From the NCBI RefSeq assembly GCF_003129605.1, contig NZ_QBDX01000004.1, positions 620,001-684,000 of the forward strand: DNA of 64,000 nt, written 5' to 3'. The notes beneath the pieces were generated by a model. It was not told where the DNA came from and searched no databases. It saw only the letters and a list, made by a program, of their open reading frames with translations. How positions within the stretch are numbered: the first letter of the stretch is position 1; each line of letters opens with the position of its first letter. Of this stretch, positions 16,171 to 45,117 are shown one piece after another. This DNA comes from Hyphobacterium indicum (GTDB taxonomy: Bacteria > Pseudomonadota > Alphaproteobacteria > Caulobacterales > Maricaulaceae). A program made the position numbers and the translations under genes.

Positions 16171-16195
16171 AAAAAGGCGGGCCCGAAGGCCCGCC
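16169..16195 (-). terminator. Rho-independent terminator of TonB-dependent receptor copy 1
   Basis: On the minus strand: 8-bp stem GGCGGGCC/GGCCCGCC with a TTCG tetraloop, then seven T (complement of 16169-16175). It ends the receptor transcript after a 114-base structured 3' untranslated region and overlaps the end of the convergent CoA-transferase gene. A matching terminator ends the second copy at 41057-41086. Confidence 0.85.
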
Positions 16196-16199
16196 CAGC

Positions 16200-16291
16200 A
16201 TACGCATAACACTGTTTTCGGAGGGCGAGGCCGGCGTCCGGAACCGAGAACTCACCAAAGTCCCGGATGCCAACCTCTGAGTGCTGCGTAT
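16200..16291 (-). ncRNA. Candidate structured 3'-UTR RNA element, copy 1
   Basis: Between the receptor stop and terminator, the minus-strand RNA can form an outer stem (16280-16291 with 16200-16213, one bulge) enclosing an 18-bp stem (16260-16277 with 16227-16244, one mismatch) and a 15-base loop containing GAGTTCTC. The same structure, with loop length and mismatch position preserved, occurs at 41090-41179. Two base pairs of the 18-bp stem differ by compensatory double changes (G-C to A-U at pair 3, A-U to G-C at pair 17). It could be a stability element, a 3'-derived small RNA ending at the terminator, or a protein-binding site. Confidence 0.5.
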
Positions 16292-16309
16292 TACTCCGTT
16301 GTGATCTGC

Positions 16310-19207
16310 CTAGCGGCGGATCGTGACCCGGCCGTAGAAGTAGCGGCCAGCCGTGTCATAGGTCTGCTGAAGCGTGTTCATGTCGTCATTATTGGAGACA
16401 TAAGGCGGCGTCTCGTTGGCGAGATTGCGCACACCAAAGGTCAGGCCAACACCGCTGTCGACAAAGTCGTAAGCAGCCTGGATGTCATGATACATCACAC
16501 GCTCTGCCGTGTTCGACACATTGTTCGGGTTCGATGAGAAGTCGGTGACTTCATCGATATAACGGCCAACATAGTTGAACTGCCAGTTATCCGAGACCAC
16601 GCCCAGACGCAGCAGGGCGGTGATTTCCGGGAAGGCGGCAGGATTAGTGGTGAACGGATCCTGAGCAAACGTTCCGGCATATTCAGACACCGCACCACCC
16701 GGAAGCACCTGATAGGCGAAGCTTTCCAGATAGGTCACATCCAGACCGGCCACGAACTGCGCCGTCGACTGGAAGATGTCGAAGGTCGGACCGGAATAAT
16801 CAATTCCGACATCGACACCCGACGTCTCATAGGTTGACAGGTTGGCATTCGTCAGCAGAACACCGGCCAGAACACCGACCGCGGAACGGCGGGCTCCACC
16901 CGGTCCCGGGAAGGGAGCGGCCAGCGGCGTGCCAGTCACACCGGTATAACCCGGGCCTGCGATCAGGGCACAGAGCGGATCCGAGAAGTTCGGCGAGTTG
17001 TAGCACGCATTGGCAATCGTGTTGACATCTGCCGAACCGACAGCCTGCGTGATCTCGAAGGAGAAATAATCCGCCGAGAAGGTGAAGTCCTCGAGGATCG
17101 GGGTCCCCGACGGCGTGAACACCACACCGAACGTATACCCTTCCGATTCTTCTGGTGTCAGGTTTGGATTACCACCAATAACACCCGATGCCTGCGTGGA
17201 GGTCAGGGTGAAATTGCCCGGCAGACCATCAGCCTGACAGTTGGCCACCAGCGCGGCGCTGGCCGAGGCATTGGTACCGTAATTCGTACACGGATCCGTG
17301 TACTGAACAGCGGACTGTGCCTGCGGTGCGAAGAGCTCGCCGATCGACGGCGCCCGGAAGCCGGTCGAGAACGACCCGCGCAGACGAACCTGGTCATTCG
17401 GCGCCCACTCGGCCTTGATGGCATAGGTGTTGGCATCAAAGGACGAGTTCACACCCGTGCCGGTCACGTCATAGTTGGACGAACGGGCCGAAAGCTCAAC
17501 CGCCAGAAGCTCGGCAAATTCAACGCCGGACAGGATGGGAAGGCGGACCTCACCATAAAATTCCTGCGACGTGGTTTCACCTTCTGTGGCATTGCCCGAG
17601 ACGAAATAGATCTGACCGATCTGTGCCGCACCATCGGGGATGAACTCACCGGAATCCCGGCGGCGCTCATAACCCACAGCCCAGCCGATTTCACCGCCCG
17701 GAAGCTGCAGGCCACCCAGATCACCCGACAGGTTGGCCTGGAAGGACAAACGGGTCTGACGGGACACCGGTGAGTGACGCACCAGCATGTAGTTGGCGAT
17801 GGTATCGGTCAGCGTATCGCGGCGGAACGGGTCCCAGATCAGATTGGCCGGGGTCTGACACGCACCGGCCGCGAGGGACGCCGGGTCATTACACAGCACC
17901 TGAGCCGCGCGGATCGGATTAGCCTGACCATCAATCACCCGAGCGTCGAGATAACGGCCATAGGACAGCGACGTATCCCAGAAAATGCCAGCCGGCAGCA
18001 TGCCTTCAAGACCGAAGATCGACCGCCAGGAGGTCGCATCCTGGGTGAAGAAACGGCCGCTTTCCAGCTCCGCCAGACGGCGGGCGACAAAGACGCTTTC
18101 ACCGGTCGGGTTGTTCGGGTGGAAGGCCGGAACCAGCGGGAACCAGAACGTGCCCACAGGGGCAAGCTGCTGCTGCGACGAGCGCTGGGCGAACATGAAT
18201 TCACCATAGGCCGTCGCCTGACCGAAGCGGTCAGAGTTCAGAACGTCATACTCGGCATCAAAGAAGCCGGAGAAGACTTCCTGCGGTGTCACCATGTAGG
18301 AGCGTGCCGCGAAGTTATAACCATCCGCCGGGGTGAAGGCGCGAAGAACGCCCGTCGCCGGATCGAGGATCGCACCGGCACTGCCGAATTGAGCAGTAAA
18401 GTTGGGCGAAGCCGCACCATTTCCGAAGATCTGTCCCGGATAGGACGTACCCGAACCGCCACAGATCAGCTGGCCACCAACTTCTGCCCACGGACAGGCC
18501 GAGAACGGACGCGCACCCTGAATAATGGTACCACGGTCGAAATATTCGAGGTTGGCGGTAAAGCGGCCACCATCGAAGGACCGGCCGAAGGTCAGGCCGT
18601 AACGATAGATCTGGCCATCGCCTTCCCCCGTCACATCATACTGGCCGAAAGCTTCAAAGCCTTCGACATCATCACGGGTGATGATGTTGACCACGCCGGC
18701 AATCGCGTCGGAACCATAAACCGTCGAGGCGCCGTCACGCAGGACTTCAACACGGCCGATCAGCGAGACCGGGATCAGGTTGAGGTCAGCCGTACCGCCG
18801 GTATTCGCCGGGGTTGTACGGCGGCCATTGACGAGGACCAGCGTCCGCTGCGGGCCGAGGCCGCGCAGCGAGATCGTCGCCTGACCACCCGAACCGTTAT
18901 TGACGCGCGAGTTGGTTTCCCCACCCGGCGCGAATGTGATCTGGTCGGCAAAGTCTTCCAGCGTCCGGACCGCCTGAACATTCAGGTCATCCTGGCTGAC
19001 GACTGTGATCGGGCTGACCGAGGTCAGCTCGCTGCGGCCGATCCGTGAACCGGTCACGATGATGCGGTCTTCCGACGCGCCATCCTGAGCGAAGGCAACG
19101 CCGCCCCCAAAAGTTGAAGCCATAGCCACTGCCGCACAGGACGACAGAGCCAGAGTCTTCAACGAGACGCGTGTGCGCCGTTCAAACACTTTCATCTGAG
19201 TCTCCAT
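16310..19207 (-). CDS. TonB-dependent outer-membrane receptor, duplicate copy 1
   Basis: 965 residues. The signal peptide (cleavage near Ala40-Gln41) is followed by the plug domain (RIIVTGSRIGRSEL at about 47-60, RGLGPQRTLVLVNGRR near 115-130, VEVLRDGASTVYGSDAIAGVVNIIT near 150-175) and a large beta-barrel ending in ...FYGRVTIRR. It imports an unknown ligand across the outer membrane using TonB energy. The start ATG has GGAGGGG 6 bases upstream. An orphan LytTR regulator is transcribed divergently, with a 21-bp-period direct repeat between them. It is about 95% identical to the receptor at 41198-44095. No substrate-binding protein, transporter or catabolic gene is tied to it, so the ligand cannot be guessed. 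Confidence 0.93.
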   Translation of the reverse strand: METQMKVFERRTRVSLKTLALSSCAAVAMASTFGGGVAFAQDGASEDRIIVTGSRIGRSELTSVSPITVVSQDDLNVQAVRTLEDFADQITFAPGGETNSRVNNGSGGQATISLRGLGPQRTLVLVNGRRTTPANTGGTADLNLIPVSLIGRVEVLRDGASTVYGSDAIAGVVNIITRDDVEGFEAFGQYDVTGEGDGQIYRYGLTFGRSFDGGRFTANLEYFDRGTIIQGARPFSACPWAEVGGQLICGGSGTSYPGQIFGNGAASPNFTAQFGSAGAILDPATGVLRAFTPADGYNFAARSYMVTPQEVFSGFFDAEYDVLNSDRFGQATAYGEFMFAQRSSQQQLAPVGTFWFPLVPAFHPNNPTGESVFVARRLAELESGRFFTQDATSWRSIFGLEGMLPAGIFWDTSLSYGRYLDARVIDGQANPIRAAQVLCNDPASLAAGACQTPANLIWDPFRRDTLTDTIANYMLVRHSPVSRQTRLSFQANLSGDLGGLQLPGGEIGWAVGYERRRDSGEFIPDGAAQIGQIYFVSGNATEGETTSQEFYGEVRLPILSGVEFAELLAVELSARSSNYDVTGTGVNSSFDANTYAIKAEWAPNDQVRLRGSFSTGFRAPSIGELFAPQAQSAVQYTDPCTNYGTNASASAALVANCQADGLPGNFTLTSTQASGVIGGNPNLTPEESEGYTFGVVFTPSGTPILEDFTFSADYFSFEITQAVGSADVNTIANACYNSPNFSDPLCALIAGPGYTGVTGTPLAAPFPGPGGARRSAVGVLAGVLLTNANLSTYETSGVDVGIDYSGPTFDIFQSTAQFVAGLDVTYLESFAYQVLPGGAVSEYAGTFAQDPFTTNPAAFPEITALLRLGVVSDNWQFNYVGRYIDEVTDFSSNPNNVSNTAERVMYHDIQAAYDFVDSGVGLTFGVRNLANETPPYVSNNDDMNTLQQTYDTAGRYFYGRVTIRR

Positions 19208-19290
19208 ATTTTTCCCCTCCGAACGTCATGACGACGCAGGAACTGATCCCCCTAAACGAGTGGGAACAGGATCAAAAGACCCGAGCGATG

Positions 19291-19318: not shown

Positions 19319-19441
19319 ATAAATGAACGCTATCTTACTGATATTTCATATTAAAAAGAGTCCACATATCACGTTTCTGTTACCGGAATTCAGCCGATCG
19401 TGATTTCCTTTGAAGCCCGGAATTCTCAACCATTGGAAGTT

Positions 19442-20251
19442 ATGGGAGGACGCCAGTTTAATACGATGAGTATGTGTGGAGACCGTCCCGTTCTGGTGAT
19501 GTGTGCGCCTGATGCGCTCGGCGTCCGTCTGCAATCTTTCATTGCTGACAGGTGCAAGCTCTTGCGTATTTCAAACGTCAGTACACCCCGTGAACTTGAT
19601 GAGCTGATCCGGGACGGCGGTGCGGCCGGAGCATTACTGGCTGCGCATCAGGTCGGACGGACGGAAAGGCAACTCGCCGCCCGGCTGGAGGAAGCCGACA
19701 TCCCCTACCTGCTCGCAGTGAACTCGGAACACCAGGCACATCTGATGTTTGAATTGACCGCGCGCGACTATGTGCTGATGAAAATGCCCGATGATCATAT
19801 CAGAAATGCACTCATCCGGTTTCTGAAAAGCCTTGTTCCGGACCAAAGCCCGGTCGCAGCAAATGGCACCGCATCGTTCATGACAGAGTCGAACGCGATC
19901 TGGGTCAGAACCGGCCATGCCGAGCGGAAAGTCCTGCATTCCGCCATAAGATCGATTTCGGCGGACAAGGATTATGCCATTATCGAGCTCGACGACACAT
20001 CCCTGCTCGTCCGGGCGACCATGTCGTCACTGGAAGCAGAACTGCCGGATAACGATTTCGTCCGCATTCACAGATCGCATATCGTTTCGGCAGACGACAT
20101 TCGTGAAGTGCGGACGCTGGGTCCGAACCGTCACCAGATCAGGCTGAAGAACGGGCGGGCCTTTCCGGTCGGCCGGACCTACTGGCCCCGTATTCGTGCC
20201 ATGCTGCGCCGCCAGAACCGGCCCTCCGGCGTACAGCTCCCGGCGGGCTAA
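19442..20251 (+). CDS. Orphan LytTR regulator with degenerate receiver-like domain, module 1
   Basis: About 269 residues from the ATG at 19442; GTG at 19400 and ATGs at 19466 and 19472 are alternatives, the last aligning best with the paralogue start. The N-terminal 120 residues show the alternating beta/alpha pattern of a receiver (PVLVMCA, ALLAAH, IPYLLAVN, YVLMKMP), but the acidic pocket and phospho-acceptor Asp are not evident. The C-terminal 100 residues are a LytTR DNA-binding domain (SISADKDYAIIELDD, FVRIHRSHIV, FPVGRTYWPRI). No histidine kinase is adjacent. Divergent orientation from the receptor implies that it regulates the receptor and possibly itself. Its LytTR domain is clearly related to the protein at 44356-45117, while the N-terminal halves share little. 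Confidence 0.85.
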   Translation: MGGRQFNTMSMCGDRPVLVMCAPDALGVRLQSFIADRCKLLRISNVSTPRELDELIRDGGAAGALLAAHQVGRTERQLAARLEEADIPYLLAVNSEHQAHLMFELTARDYVLMKMPDDHIRNALIRFLKSLVPDQSPVAANGTASFMTESNAIWVRTGHAERKVLHSAIRSISADKDYAIIELDDTSLLVRATMSSLEAELPDNDFVRIHRSHIVSADDIREVRTLGPNRHQIRLKNGRAFPVGRTYWPRIRAMLRRQNRPSGVQLPAG

Positions 20252-41056: not shown

Positions 41057-41086
41057 AAAAAAGGGGCGGGTCCGAAGACCCGCCCC
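41057..41086 (-). terminator. Rho-independent terminator of TonB-dependent receptor copy 2
   Basis: On the minus strand a 10-bp stem GGGGCGGGTC/GACCCGCCCC with TTCG loop, then six T. It parallels the terminator of copy 1 at 16169-16195 but with two extra base pairs. It begins 10 bases after the convergent acyl-CoA synthetase stop. Confidence 0.88.
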
Positions 41087-41089
41087 CAG

Positions 41090-41179
41090 ATACGTGACAC
41101 TGTACTCGGAGGGCGAAGCCAGCATCCGGAGCGGAGAACTCAGAGAAGCTCCGGAAACCAGCTCCTGAGTGTCGCGTAT
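41090..41179 (-). ncRNA. Candidate structured 3'-UTR RNA element, copy 2
   Basis: Minus-strand RNA between receptor stop and terminator: outer stem 41168-41179 with 41090-41101 (11 of 12 paired) and inner 18-bp stem 41148-41165 with 41115-41132, with one mismatch at the same place as in copy 1 and a 15-base loop containing the shared GAGTTCTC. Sequence differences from copy 1 largely preserve pairing, with two full compensatory changes in the inner stem. Confidence 0.5.
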
Positions 41180-41197
41180 TCCTCTGTTCAGACCGGC

Positions 41198-44095
41198 CTA
41201 GCGGCGGATCGTGACCCGGCCGTAGAAGTAGCGGCCAGCCGTGTCGTAGGTCTGGTTCAGTGTGTTCATGTCATCATTATTGGTGACATAAGGCGGCGTC
41301 TCATTGGCGAGATTGCGCACACCGAAGGTCAGGCCAACACCGCTGTCGACAAAGTCGTAAGCAGCCTGGACGTCATGATAGAAGACACGCTCTGCCGTGT
41401 TCGACACATTGGCCGGGTTCGACGAGAAGTCGGTGACTTCGTCAATATAGCGGCCAACATAGTTGAACTGCCAGTTATCCGAGACCACGCCCAGACGCAG
41501 CAGGGCGGTGATTTCCGGGAAGGCGGCAGGAGTCGTGGTGAACGGATCCTGAGCGAACCGGCCAGCATATTCAGACACCGCACCACCCGGAAGCACCTGA
41601 TAGGCGAAGCTTTCCAGATAGGTGATGTCCAGGCCGGCCACAAACTGTGCCGTCGACTCAAAGATATCAAAGGTCGGACCGGAATAATCAATTCCGACAT
41701 CGACACCGGACGTCTCATAGGTCGACAGGTTGGCATTGGTCAGCAGCACGCCGGCCAGAACACCAACCGCTGAACGGCGCGCCCCGCCCGGTCCCGGGAA
41801 AGGAGCGGCCAGAGGCGTTCCACCGACGCCCGAATAACCCGGGCCTGCAATCAGGGCACAGAGCGGATCCGAGAAGTTCGGCGAGTTGTAGCACGAATTG
41901 GCAATCGTGTTGACATCAGCCGAACCCACAGCCTGCGTGATCTCGAAGGAGAAGTAATCCGCCGAGAAGGTGAAGTCCTCGAGGATCGGCGTCCCCGACG
42001 GCGTGAACACCACACCGAAGGTATACCCTTCCGATTCTTCCGGTGTCAGGTTTGGATTACCACCCACAACACCCGAAGCCTGCGTCGAGGTCAGGGTGAA
42101 ATTGCCCGGCAGACCATCAGCCTGACAGTTGGCCACCAGCGCGGCGCTGGCCGAGGCATTGGTACCGTAATTCGTACACGGATCCGTGTACTGAACAGCG
42201 GACTGTGCCTGCGGTGCGAAGAGCTCGCCGATCGACGGAGCCCGGAAGCCGGTCGAGAACGACCCGCGCAAACGAACCTGGTCATTCGGTGCCCACTCGG
42301 CCTTGATGGCATAGGTATTGGCATCAAAGGACGAGTTCACACCCGTGCCGGTCACGTCATAGTTGGACGAACGGGCCGAAAGCTCAACCGCCAGAATCTC
42401 GGCAAATTCAACGCCGGACAGGATGGGCAGGCGGACCTCACCATAAAATTCCTGCGACGTGGTTTCACCTTGCGTGGCATTGCCGGAGACAAAGAAGATC
42501 TGACCGATCTGTGCCGCACCATCGGGGATGAACTCGCCGGTATCCCGGCGGCGCTCATAACCCACAGCCCAGCCGATTTCACCGCCCGGAAGCTGCAGGC
42601 CACCCAGATCACCCGACAGGTTGGCCTGGAAGGACAAACGGGTCTGACGGGACACCGGTGAGTGACGCACCAGCATGTAGTTGGCAATGGCATCGGTCAG
42701 CGTATCCGTCCGGAACGGGTCCCAGATCAGATTGGCCGGGGTCTGACACGAACCGGCCGCAAGAGACGCCGGGTCATTACACAGCACCTGGGCCGCACGG
42801 ACCGGATTGGCCTGCCCATCGACCACCTGGGCATCGACATAGCGGCCATAGGACAGCGACGTATCCCAGAAGATACCGGCCGGCAGCATGCCTTCAAGAC
42901 CGAAGATCGACCGCCAGGAGGTCGCGTCCTGGGTAGAGAAACGGCCGCTTTCCAGCTCCGCCAGGCGGCGGGCGACAAAGACGCCCTCACCGGTCGGGTT
43001 GTTCGGGTGGAAGGCCGGAACCAGCGGAAACCAGAACGTGCCCACAGGGGCGAGCTGCTGCTGCGAGGACCGCTGGGCGAACATGAATTCACCATAGGCC
43101 GTCGCCTGACCGAAGCGGTCAGAGTTCAGAACATCATACTCGGCATCAAAGAAGCCGGAGAAGACTTCCTGCGGCGTCACCATGTAGGACACGGCAGCAA
43201 AATTATAGCCATCGGCCGGGGTGAAGGCGCGAAGAACGCCCGTCGCCGGATCGAGGATCGCACCGGCAGTGCCGAATTGAGCAGTAAAGTTGGGCGAGGC
43301 CGCACCATTACCGAAGATCTGGCCCGGATAGGATGTGCCCGAACCGCCACAGATCAACTGGCCACCGACTTCAGTCCACGGACAGGCCGAGAACGGACGG
43401 TCACCCTGCATGATCGTGCCACGATCGAAATATTCGAGATTGGCGGTAAAACGGCCACCATCGAAGGAGCGGCCGAAGGTCAGGCCGTAACGATAGATCT
43501 GGCCATCGCCTTCCCCCGTCACATCATACTGGCCAAAGGCTTCAAAGCCCTCGACATCATCACGGGTGATGATGTTGACCACGCCGGCAATCGCGTCGGA
43601 ACCGTAAACCGTCGAGGCGCCGTCACGCAGCACTTCAACACGGCCGATCAGCGAGACCGGGATCAGGTTGAGGTCAGCCGTACCGCCGGTATTCGCCGGG
43701 GTTGTACGGCGGCCATTGACGAGGACCAGTGTCCGCTGCGGGCCAAGGCCGCGCAGCGAGATGGTCGCCTGACCACCCGAACCGTTATTCATCCGCGAAG
43801 AGGTTTCCCCACCCGGTGCGAATGTGATCTGGTCGGCAAAGTCTTCCAGCGTCCGGACAGCCTGAACATTCAGGTCATCCTGGCTGACGACTGTGATCGG
43901 GCTGACCGAGGTCAGCTCGCTGCGGCCGATCCGTGAACCGGTCACGATGATGCGGTCTTCCGACGCGCCATCCTGAGCGAAGGCAACGCCGCCCCCCAGG
44001 GCCGTTGTGAGAGCCATCGCCGCGCAAGACGATAAGGTCAATGTTTTCAAAGAGACGCGTAAGCGCCGTTCATTCATCTTCATTAGAGTCTCCAT
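41198..44095 (-). CDS. TonB-dependent outer-membrane receptor, duplicate copy 2
   Basis: 965 residues from the ATG at 44095, which has GGAGGGG 5 bases upstream and matches the start of copy 1; an in-frame extension to 44368 is rejected because it crosses the promoter region and overlaps the LytTR gene. Domain order is as in copy 1: signal peptide (cleavage near 40), plug and barrel. Of about 44 differences from copy 1, 11 lie in the first 41 residues; the rest are scattered, for example in the region after EYFDRGTI and in the extracellular-loop-like stretch near GRYVDAQVVDG. A distinct divergent LytTR gene and different upstream DNA suggest different expression conditions for nearly the same receptor. 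Confidence 0.93.
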   Translation of the reverse strand: METLMKMNERRLRVSLKTLTLSSCAAMALTTALGGGVAFAQDGASEDRIIVTGSRIGRSELTSVSPITVVSQDDLNVQAVRTLEDFADQITFAPGGETSSRMNNGSGGQATISLRGLGPQRTLVLVNGRRTTPANTGGTADLNLIPVSLIGRVEVLRDGASTVYGSDAIAGVVNIITRDDVEGFEAFGQYDVTGEGDGQIYRYGLTFGRSFDGGRFTANLEYFDRGTIMQGDRPFSACPWTEVGGQLICGGSGTSYPGQIFGNGAASPNFTAQFGTAGAILDPATGVLRAFTPADGYNFAAVSYMVTPQEVFSGFFDAEYDVLNSDRFGQATAYGEFMFAQRSSQQQLAPVGTFWFPLVPAFHPNNPTGEGVFVARRLAELESGRFSTQDATSWRSIFGLEGMLPAGIFWDTSLSYGRYVDAQVVDGQANPVRAAQVLCNDPASLAAGSCQTPANLIWDPFRTDTLTDAIANYMLVRHSPVSRQTRLSFQANLSGDLGGLQLPGGEIGWAVGYERRRDTGEFIPDGAAQIGQIFFVSGNATQGETTSQEFYGEVRLPILSGVEFAEILAVELSARSSNYDVTGTGVNSSFDANTYAIKAEWAPNDQVRLRGSFSTGFRAPSIGELFAPQAQSAVQYTDPCTNYGTNASASAALVANCQADGLPGNFTLTSTQASGVVGGNPNLTPEESEGYTFGVVFTPSGTPILEDFTFSADYFSFEITQAVGSADVNTIANSCYNSPNFSDPLCALIAGPGYSGVGGTPLAAPFPGPGGARRSAVGVLAGVLLTNANLSTYETSGVDVGIDYSGPTFDIFESTAQFVAGLDITYLESFAYQVLPGGAVSEYAGRFAQDPFTTTPAAFPEITALLRLGVVSDNWQFNYVGRYIDEVTDFSSNPANVSNTAERVFYHDVQAAYDFVDSGVGLTFGVRNLANETPPYVTNNDDMNTLNQTYDTAGRYFYGRVTIRR

Positions 44096-44189
44096 TTTTC
44101 CCCTCCGGACGCCGGGAAGGCGTACGAAGCCGAAGTCATACGGGAGAGAAAAACAGCTCTGAACCGCGTAGCGACGATGTCGGGACGGG

Positions 44190-44355: not shown

Positions 44356-45117
44356 ATGCCGTCGCCACGCCTGAATGTAATCCTGTCGTCCAACGGCGAT
44401 ATCCGCCGCGAGCTGACGGGCTTTATCTCCAGTGTCAGTGAGGTCACGACAACACCTCCACGTCTGGCTCGTGAACTGACCGAGACAATGGCCAGGTCCG
44501 GCAATGTGGACGGTGTGCTGATATTCGCCGACGAAGCGGACAGCGACACAATCGGTCTGGCGAAACATGTGGATACGCTCGATATTCCCTACATGCTCGC
44601 ACTGGGACAGTGCGGCTCCGCACAAGTTCTGTTCGAGTTGGCGTCGCGCGAATTTATCCTGATATCGCGGGATTTCGACCAGATCCGCGCTACGATAACC
44701 AGGTTTCTGGCATATCTGGCTGATCCGTCCCGGAAATACCGGGGACCGAAGTCCGGAGCCTCGCAGCTGCCCGGAGATATCTGGGTGCGCCAAGGCTATG
44801 CAGAACGCAGGATTTCTCTGAATGAAATCCGCTCGATATCGGCTGACAAGGATTACGCTATCATCGAACTGCCGAACGCGTCGCTGCTGGTTCGCGCAAC
44901 ACTTGCAACACTCGAGGATGAGCTCAATGCGCAAGATTTTGTCCGAATTCACCGCTCGCACATCGTCCCCGCGCGTCGTATTCGTGAAGTCAGGAATACG
45001 ACGCGGCACAGCCATCAGGTCAGACTCGAGAACGGGGAGGTGTTTCCGGTTGGCAAGACATACTGGCCGCGGCTGCGAAAGCGGTTTCGAAGCCAGTTGA
45101 TTCGCAACCCGGGTTGA
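44356..45117 (+). CDS. Orphan LytTR regulator with degenerate receiver-like domain, module 2
   Basis: 253 residues. The N-terminal 120 residues have receiver-like strand/helix alternation (LNVILSS, VDGVLIFADEAD, IPYMLALG, EFILISRDF), but the usual acidic pair and phospho-Asp/Lys set is incomplete. The C-terminal LytTR domain (SISADKDYAIIELPN, FVRIHRSHIVPARRIREVR, FPVGKTYWPRLRKRF) is clearly homologous to the module 1 regulator, whereas the N-terminal halves align only loosely. No kinase is nearby. Its divergent position and the 21-bp repeats point to control of receptor copy 2. Confidence 0.87.
   Translation: MPSPRLNVILSSNGDIRRELTGFISSVSEVTTTPPRLARELTETMARSGNVDGVLIFADEADSDTIGLAKHVDTLDIPYMLALGQCGSAQVLFELASREFILISRDFDQIRATITRFLAYLADPSRKYRGPKSGASQLPGDIWVRQGYAERRISLNEIRSISADKDYAIIELPNASLLVRATLATLEDELNAQDFVRIHRSHIVPARRIREVRNTTRHSHQVRLENGEVFPVGKTYWPRLRKRFRSQLIRNPG

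Follow-up and report, generated by a model that had tools for sequence, protein, structure and literature searches.

The messenger RNAs of two duplicated TonB-dependent receptors (TBDRs), here termed A and B, carry a conserved and structured element in their 3' untranslated regions (3'UTRs), and two segments that stay unpaired in this element are complementary to the sites at which translation of these receptors and of a third paralogue begins. With a probability of roughly 0.6, the receptor and its paralogues are repressed by this element, an antisense regulator that the 3'UTR encodes and that is probably set free as an Hfq-dependent small RNA (sRNA); transcription, processing and repression are deduced from sequence. 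The strongest evidence is the complementarity to the receptor-family starts, which is specific and non-random as predicted from pairing energies, in combination with the slower evolution of the element.

Location and Structure of the Element

The window, which is the whole stretch of 64,000 nucleotides analysed here (G000:C4:620001-684000, from a genome of 2.79 Mb), contains receptor A at 16310..19207 on the minus strand, with the domains PF00593 and PF07715, and receptor B at 41198..44095 on the same strand, whose protein is 95% identical to that of A. For both genes, the minus strand reads from the receptor stop codon through the element to an intrinsic terminator. Element A lies at 16199..16292 and the terminator of the receptor A mRNA, which has a U6 tail, at 16173..16198, while element B lies at 41087..41180 and the terminator of the receptor B mRNA at 41062..41087 (all minus strand). 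Each element consists of an outer stem, a long inner hairpin and an unpaired 3' internal loop, and scores 110 bits (A) or 112 bits (B) with the covariance model (CM R1). The inner hairpins are found at 16227..16277 (minus strand, apical loop CUUUGGUGAGUUCUC) and 41115..41165 (minus strand, apical loop CUUCUCUGAGUUCUCC); both loops contain GAGUUCUC and are enclosed by the outer stem, and both inner stems are broken at one common mismatch position, which is A/C in A and U/U in B. The coordinates and anatomy given in the original prediction hold, including the common mismatch, the loop and the outer stem. As for the strand, its coordinates were those of the plus strand but its loop was correctly quoted on the minus strand, which is the structured one and the sense strand of the receptor mRNA.

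In single-strand folding, element A reaches a minimum free energy of -43.3 kcal/mol (z -4.81) and element B -39.3 kcal/mol (z -3.74), and for neither did any of 200 shuffled sequences fold as well. The opposite strand folds less well, with z values of -2.40 (A) and -3.47 (B). A conserved unpaired segment of 13 nt in the 3' internal loop (CGCCCUCCGA...AC) was absent from the original prediction, and a conserved AAUA stands just 5' of the fold. A search for promoter-like sites found none upstream of element A and one weak candidate before element B. A pseudoknot between the loop and the 5' strand within the element (ACUCA/UGAGU) was also considered, and appears sterically unlikely because a long stem intervenes with almost no linker.

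A third paralogue, C3, at G000:C3:52568-55429, was likewise absent from the original prediction. Its protein is 92% identical and its terminator follows soon after the stop codon, with no element at its 3' end, and possession of the receptor gene therefore does not in itself entail the element.

Conservation and Covariation

The element evolves more slowly than the genes around it. Between the genome of the window (G000) and G004, 87 of 95 positions of the element are identical, compared to 2347 of 2908 in the receptor coding sequence (CDS) and 79 of 123 in the 5'UTR. Between G000 and G005, element copy A is unchanged (94/94), compared to 537/593 at the end of the CDS and 1100/1144 in the CoA-transferase gene; conservation of the pairing itself is traceable only in these two relatives. 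Within G000, the two elements share 70 of 94 positions (74%) and the two receptor CDSs 2706 of 2898 (93%), which indicates old elements beside homogenised receptor bodies. The blocks that are invariant between A and B are mainly unpaired ones, UGAGUUCUC of the apical loop and UCGCCCUCCGA towards the 3' end, to which the outer stem is added, and conservation of unpaired bases is the pattern that an RNA acting by base-pairing would show.

Two full compensatory changes had been claimed between the stems of A and B, and both were recovered, at pair 18/64 (G-C to A-U) and at pair 32/50 (A-U to G-C). The remaining stem substitutions yield G-U, as had also been claimed, save for one loss from U-G to U-C beside the loop. 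Overall, 96.7% of cells pair and two pairs are altered on both sides among four distinct sequences. The covariation score, however, was reached by 41 of 500 shuffles, and placing the same substitutions at random gave p values of 0.093 (A to B) and 0.006 (B to A). Covariation taken alone is therefore moderate evidence, supportive and not decisive, as the carriers amount to three genomes and effectively two lineages (A-type and B-type). The homologues in G005 (two copies) and G004 (one copy) retain the fold with changes that are mostly pair-preserving. Selection for RNA structure, as originally proposed, is thus supported, though less by covariation than by the slower evolution of the element and the complementarity of its unpaired segments.

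Distribution Across Genomes

DNA and covariance-model searches covered 137 genomes of the family and then 398 of the order, in overlapping sets. Solid matches occur only in three Hyphobacterium-type genomes, G000 (two), G005 (two) and G004 (one), and each lies directly behind this receptor. Judged by the receptor, the nearest named relative of G000 is a Hyphobacterium metagenome-assembled genome (MAG). The original prediction had raised a dispersed palindromic repeat as the opposing case; such a REP/MITE-type repeat was rejected, since every solid covariance-model match is at the 3' end of this receptor and both copies in the genome stand behind it. No copies were found in plasmids. Among the weaker covariance-model matches, that in G019 (22 bits) falls inside an acetyl-CoA-carboxylase-type coding frame, and several pairs are broken in that of G045 (18 bits); both were treated as chance. 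A match in G350 (23 bits) spans only model positions 21-61. BLASTN matches in other genera are ordinary and cover, for the most part, the end of the query that holds the terminator.

At the gathering cut-off, Rfam 15 places no family over the element, nor anywhere in the window. Matches to SorX/SorY, mmgR and ylbH are sub-threshold, far below the cut-off. Membership in the alpha-r8 sRNA family (SisA-D, MmgR; RF00519) was rejected, as the 10-mer UUUCCUCCCU is absent and the elements read CGCCCUCCGA at the unpaired site; the Rfam score is 15.4 against a cut-off of 41 and covers the terminator part.

Complementarity to Receptor Start Regions

The two invariant unpaired segments, UGAGUUCUC in the apical loop and CGCCCUCCGA in the internal loop, are complementary in antiparallel order to the Shine-Dalgarno (SD) and start regions of A, B and C3. 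The translation initiation region of receptor A (19192..19222, minus strand, UUCGGAGGGGAAAAAUAUGGAGACUCAG) is a predicted target of elements B and A, and that of receptor B (44080..44109, minus strand, CCGGAGGGGAAAAAUGGAGACUCUAAUG) is a weaker one; the start region of C3 reads ACUCGGAGGGAAUUCAGAGUGAAACAGAGAACUCUCAAGG. In element A, the apical-loop seed (16244..16260, minus strand, with UGAGUUCUC invariant) finds its best partner in the C3 start region, and the 3' internal-loop seed (16213..16227, minus strand, CGCCCUCCGAAAAC) is complementary to the SD of A over 9 bp and to that of C3 over 8 bp. In element B, the apical loop finds its best partner in the start region of receptor A, and the 3' internal-loop seed (41101..41115, minus strand, CGCCCUCCGAGUAC) is complementary over 10 bp to ACUCGGAGGG at the SD of C3. 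Pairing with the SD involves CCCUCCGA, over 9 bp for A with element A and 10 bp for C3 with element B.

Among 115 start regions, GAGAACUCUCAAGG of C3 ranks first for loop A (-16.5 kcal/mol, P 0.0004 with shuffled loops), and GGAGACUCAGAUGAAA of receptor A ranks first for loop B (-17.7 kcal/mol, P 0.0008). Element A pairs only moderately with the start region of its own receptor (loop P 0.15), and the self-pairing of B is weaker. When both segments were scored jointly at 244 GGAGG-centred sites, element B ranked A first, C3 second and B eighth, while element A ranked C3 second, A twelfth and B thirtieth. At the 62 genomic seed sites, comprising 61 TCGGAGGG sites and the start region of B, C3 is the top-ranking partner of element A, and for element B the ranks are again A first, C3 second and B eighth. 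In scans of the receptor mRNAs, each about 3 kb in length, the start region is the best of about 77 sites in five of the six element/mRNA pairs and the third best in the sixth. Across the 137 family genomes, the motif GAGTTCTC-N8-38-CCCTCCGA matches, besides the five elements themselves, only the antisense strand of the start region of C3 and a single further site, compared to two matches for the reversed motif; C3 was known when the motif was trimmed, which makes the count somewhat favourable to the hypothesis. The P values are not to be multiplied, since the tests overlap and share sequences, and the sequences that tested the seed hypothesis are those from which it was derived. CU-rich seeds against GA-rich start regions also give a high pairing background.

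Opening costs are appreciable, at 6-9 kcal/mol for the element and 7.5-18 kcal/mol for the mRNA. Pairing sums that include the opening of the mRNA are still favourable at about -11 to -31 kcal/mol, before the further 6-9 kcal/mol for opening the element, and the sum for element B with C3 counts a few overlapping bases twice.

Among the 15 TBDR genes of the genome, the SD sequence CGGAGGG is seen only in A, B and C3. A global regulator of TBDRs acting through this seed was thus rejected, as the other 12 genes are without the CGGAGGG start region as far as their likely starts are readable.

Proposed Mechanism and Alternative Explanations

In the favoured model, transcription of receptors A and B would yield the element as the last part of their mRNAs, up to the intrinsic terminator. 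A U-tailed sRNA of about 115-120 nt would probably accumulate after cleavage at the conserved AAUA immediately 5' of the element, and would be bound by Hfq. The long hairpin and outer stem would expose two seeds, one in the apical loop around UGAGUUCUC and one in the 3' internal loop (CGCCCUCCGA), for pairing with the start-codon region and SD of the mRNAs of A, C3 and, more weakly, B, and ribosome binding would be blocked. Expression of A or B would in this way damp the own receptor and its near-identical sisters. The order of the seeds fits antiparallel pairing, and the paired bases span the SD and the start codon or first codons, so that a block of translation is the simplest effect. The genome has an hfq gene, which, like the U-tail of the terminator and the AAUA preceding the fold, fits the release of an sRNA from the 3'UTR. 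Sequence, structure, conservation and location of the element are direct observations, as are the hfq gene and the non-random complementarity; from these we infer transcription, processing, pairing in cells, repression as the sign of the effect and the cross-aim of B at A and of A at C3. A selected 3'UTR structure ending at the terminator is supported as originally proposed, and the 3'-derived sRNA suggested at that time is the best reading of it.

Regulation in cis only, or pairing by the intact mRNA, is unlikely but the most serious of the alternatives. Here the 3'UTR would cover the SD and start codon of its own or a sister mRNA without release of an sRNA, as in icaR of Staphylococcus aureus, a proven precedent in which a C-rich 3'UTR motif acts on the SD (PMC3868564). 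This model draws on the same complementarity: element A forms 9 perfect bp with the SD of its own mRNA (CCCUCCGAA/UUCGGAGGG), the 3'UTR of receptor B forms 7 bp with its own (CGGAGGG), and no clear promoter precedes element A. However, the strongest pairings are between genes (loop A with C3, loop B with A) rather than within them, C3 is without an element of its own, and the U-tailed terminator, Hfq and the conserved AAUA fit a released sRNA.

It is improbable that the element is a plain structural hairpin, shielding the mRNA from 3'-5' exonucleases or backing up termination between convergent genes, with the complementarity coincidental. A stable stem just 5' of a terminator, convergent neighbours at both loci (the CoA-transferase and AMP-ligase genes) and pair-preserving substitutions would all suit such a role. 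Conservation concentrated in unpaired loops, on the other hand, would not be expected of a stem with a protective role, the paralogue with 92% identity manages without the element, and the complementarity tests also speak against it.

A small mobile palindromic element (REP/MITE-like), placed by chance behind both receptor copies, is very improbable: the outer stem could be read as imperfect terminal inverted repeats and the third paralogue is without the element, but there are two copies in the genome only, with no high-scoring match elsewhere in the searched genomes and none in plasmids, and all copies stand at the same position after this receptor with both loops and stems conserved. Least probable is a functionless passenger of the receptor duplication, which would account for both copies standing behind duplicated receptors and is helped by the few genomes available, yet between orthologues the element has changed less than the coding sequence next to it, although the two elements of the genome are old beside their homogenised receptors.

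Relation to Known Regulators

Both 3'UTR-derived sRNAs and sRNAs that control TBDRs are already known; the new aspect here is an element built into a receptor mRNA and apparently aimed at paralogous receptors. OppZ and CarZ of Vibrio cholerae are 3'UTR-derived autoregulatory sRNAs (PMC7398697). As with these, the element lies between a stop codon and an intrinsic terminator, in an Hfq-type organism, and carries a conserved unpaired seed complementary to target starts; the 3' end of the mRNA is predicted to base-pair with the site where translation of that mRNA begins. In contrast, its sequence and host are unrelated, it presents two unpaired seeds on a long hairpin, and its best predicted pairing is with sister mRNAs in place of the own operon. 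Release by RNase E is putative for the element.

In S. aureus, the icaR 3'UTR covers its own SD with one UCCCC motif, within its own mRNA (PMC3868564). The element likewise has a C-rich 3'UTR motif complementary to the SD, but differs in its predicted second (loop) seed, its paralogue targets and its alphaproteobacterial host. Closer by host are the sRNAs of Caulobacter crescentus that control TBDRs, namely RusT (PMC11005374), SisA-D of the alpha-r8 family and CrfA (PMC12559287). They belong to a related bacterium and, as is predicted for the element, control TBDRs by pairing at the 5'UTR or start, and SisA has a single-stranded seed containing CCUCC and a Rho-independent terminator (PMC12559287). 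Unlike the element, which is part of a receptor mRNA, these sRNAs lie outside the mRNAs that they control. The element, if it acts as proposed, would add a receptor-linked case to the few known alphaproteobacterial 3'UTR regulators.

The Receptor Paralogues

Marine alphaproteobacteria take up nutrients mainly through TBDRs, and to our knowledge it is not understood how near-identical TBDR paralogues avoid joint expression. One tentative possibility, which we hold to be doubtful, is a paralogue-exclusion circuit of inducible TBDR genes in which the loops of the 3'UTR sRNAs have diverged towards sister receptors (B at A, A at C3) and the SD seed has been kept. If so, near-identical receptors would be expressed in a hierarchy despite coding sequences kept the same by gene conversion. 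Already under the favoured model, a receptor message would carry the silencer of its sisters, and its specificity would reside in a single short loop that differs between the two copies; this would provide a compact system for reading and directly testing sRNA-target divergence after gene duplication.

Divergent LytTR DNA-binding regulators stand upstream of both receptors (19400-20251 and 44356-45117 of the window), suggesting that each receptor has its own LytTR regulator; special conditions may therefore induce A and B, which may in turn lower C3. On the other strand, read-through from the converging CoA-transferase and AMP-ligase genes at 16173-16292 and 41062-41180 (plus strand) would give an antisense RNA mimicking the receptor start (UCGGAGGGC...GAGAACUC), which could be a sponge.

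The region downstream of C3 reads as tRNA-Trp and secE, and relatives have a TBDR with a similar leader at this place. C3 looks like a hybrid in which an A/B-like body, about 92% identical to A, follows an older TBDR leader with its signal peptide. Gene conversion, by which the bodies of the receptors stay alike but their starts and 3' ends do not, is consistent with such a hybrid. In G004 and G005, C3 is not scorable, as the assemblies break at the locus or lack it.

Two further observations concern sequences elsewhere. A TBDR leader, UACUCGGAGGGAUUAAGAGUGA, is conserved, non-coding bases included, across many genomes of another Maricaulaceae genus that are without the element, and may be the target of another sRNA. 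A short palindrome, CCCTCCGA-5 nt-TCGGAGGG, recurs in G000 at C1:374764, C2:140372, C2:547205, C4:340830 and C4:865657, at several places with a CGACTTGATCGGAGGG flank, and is a dispersed repeat apparently unrelated to the receptors.
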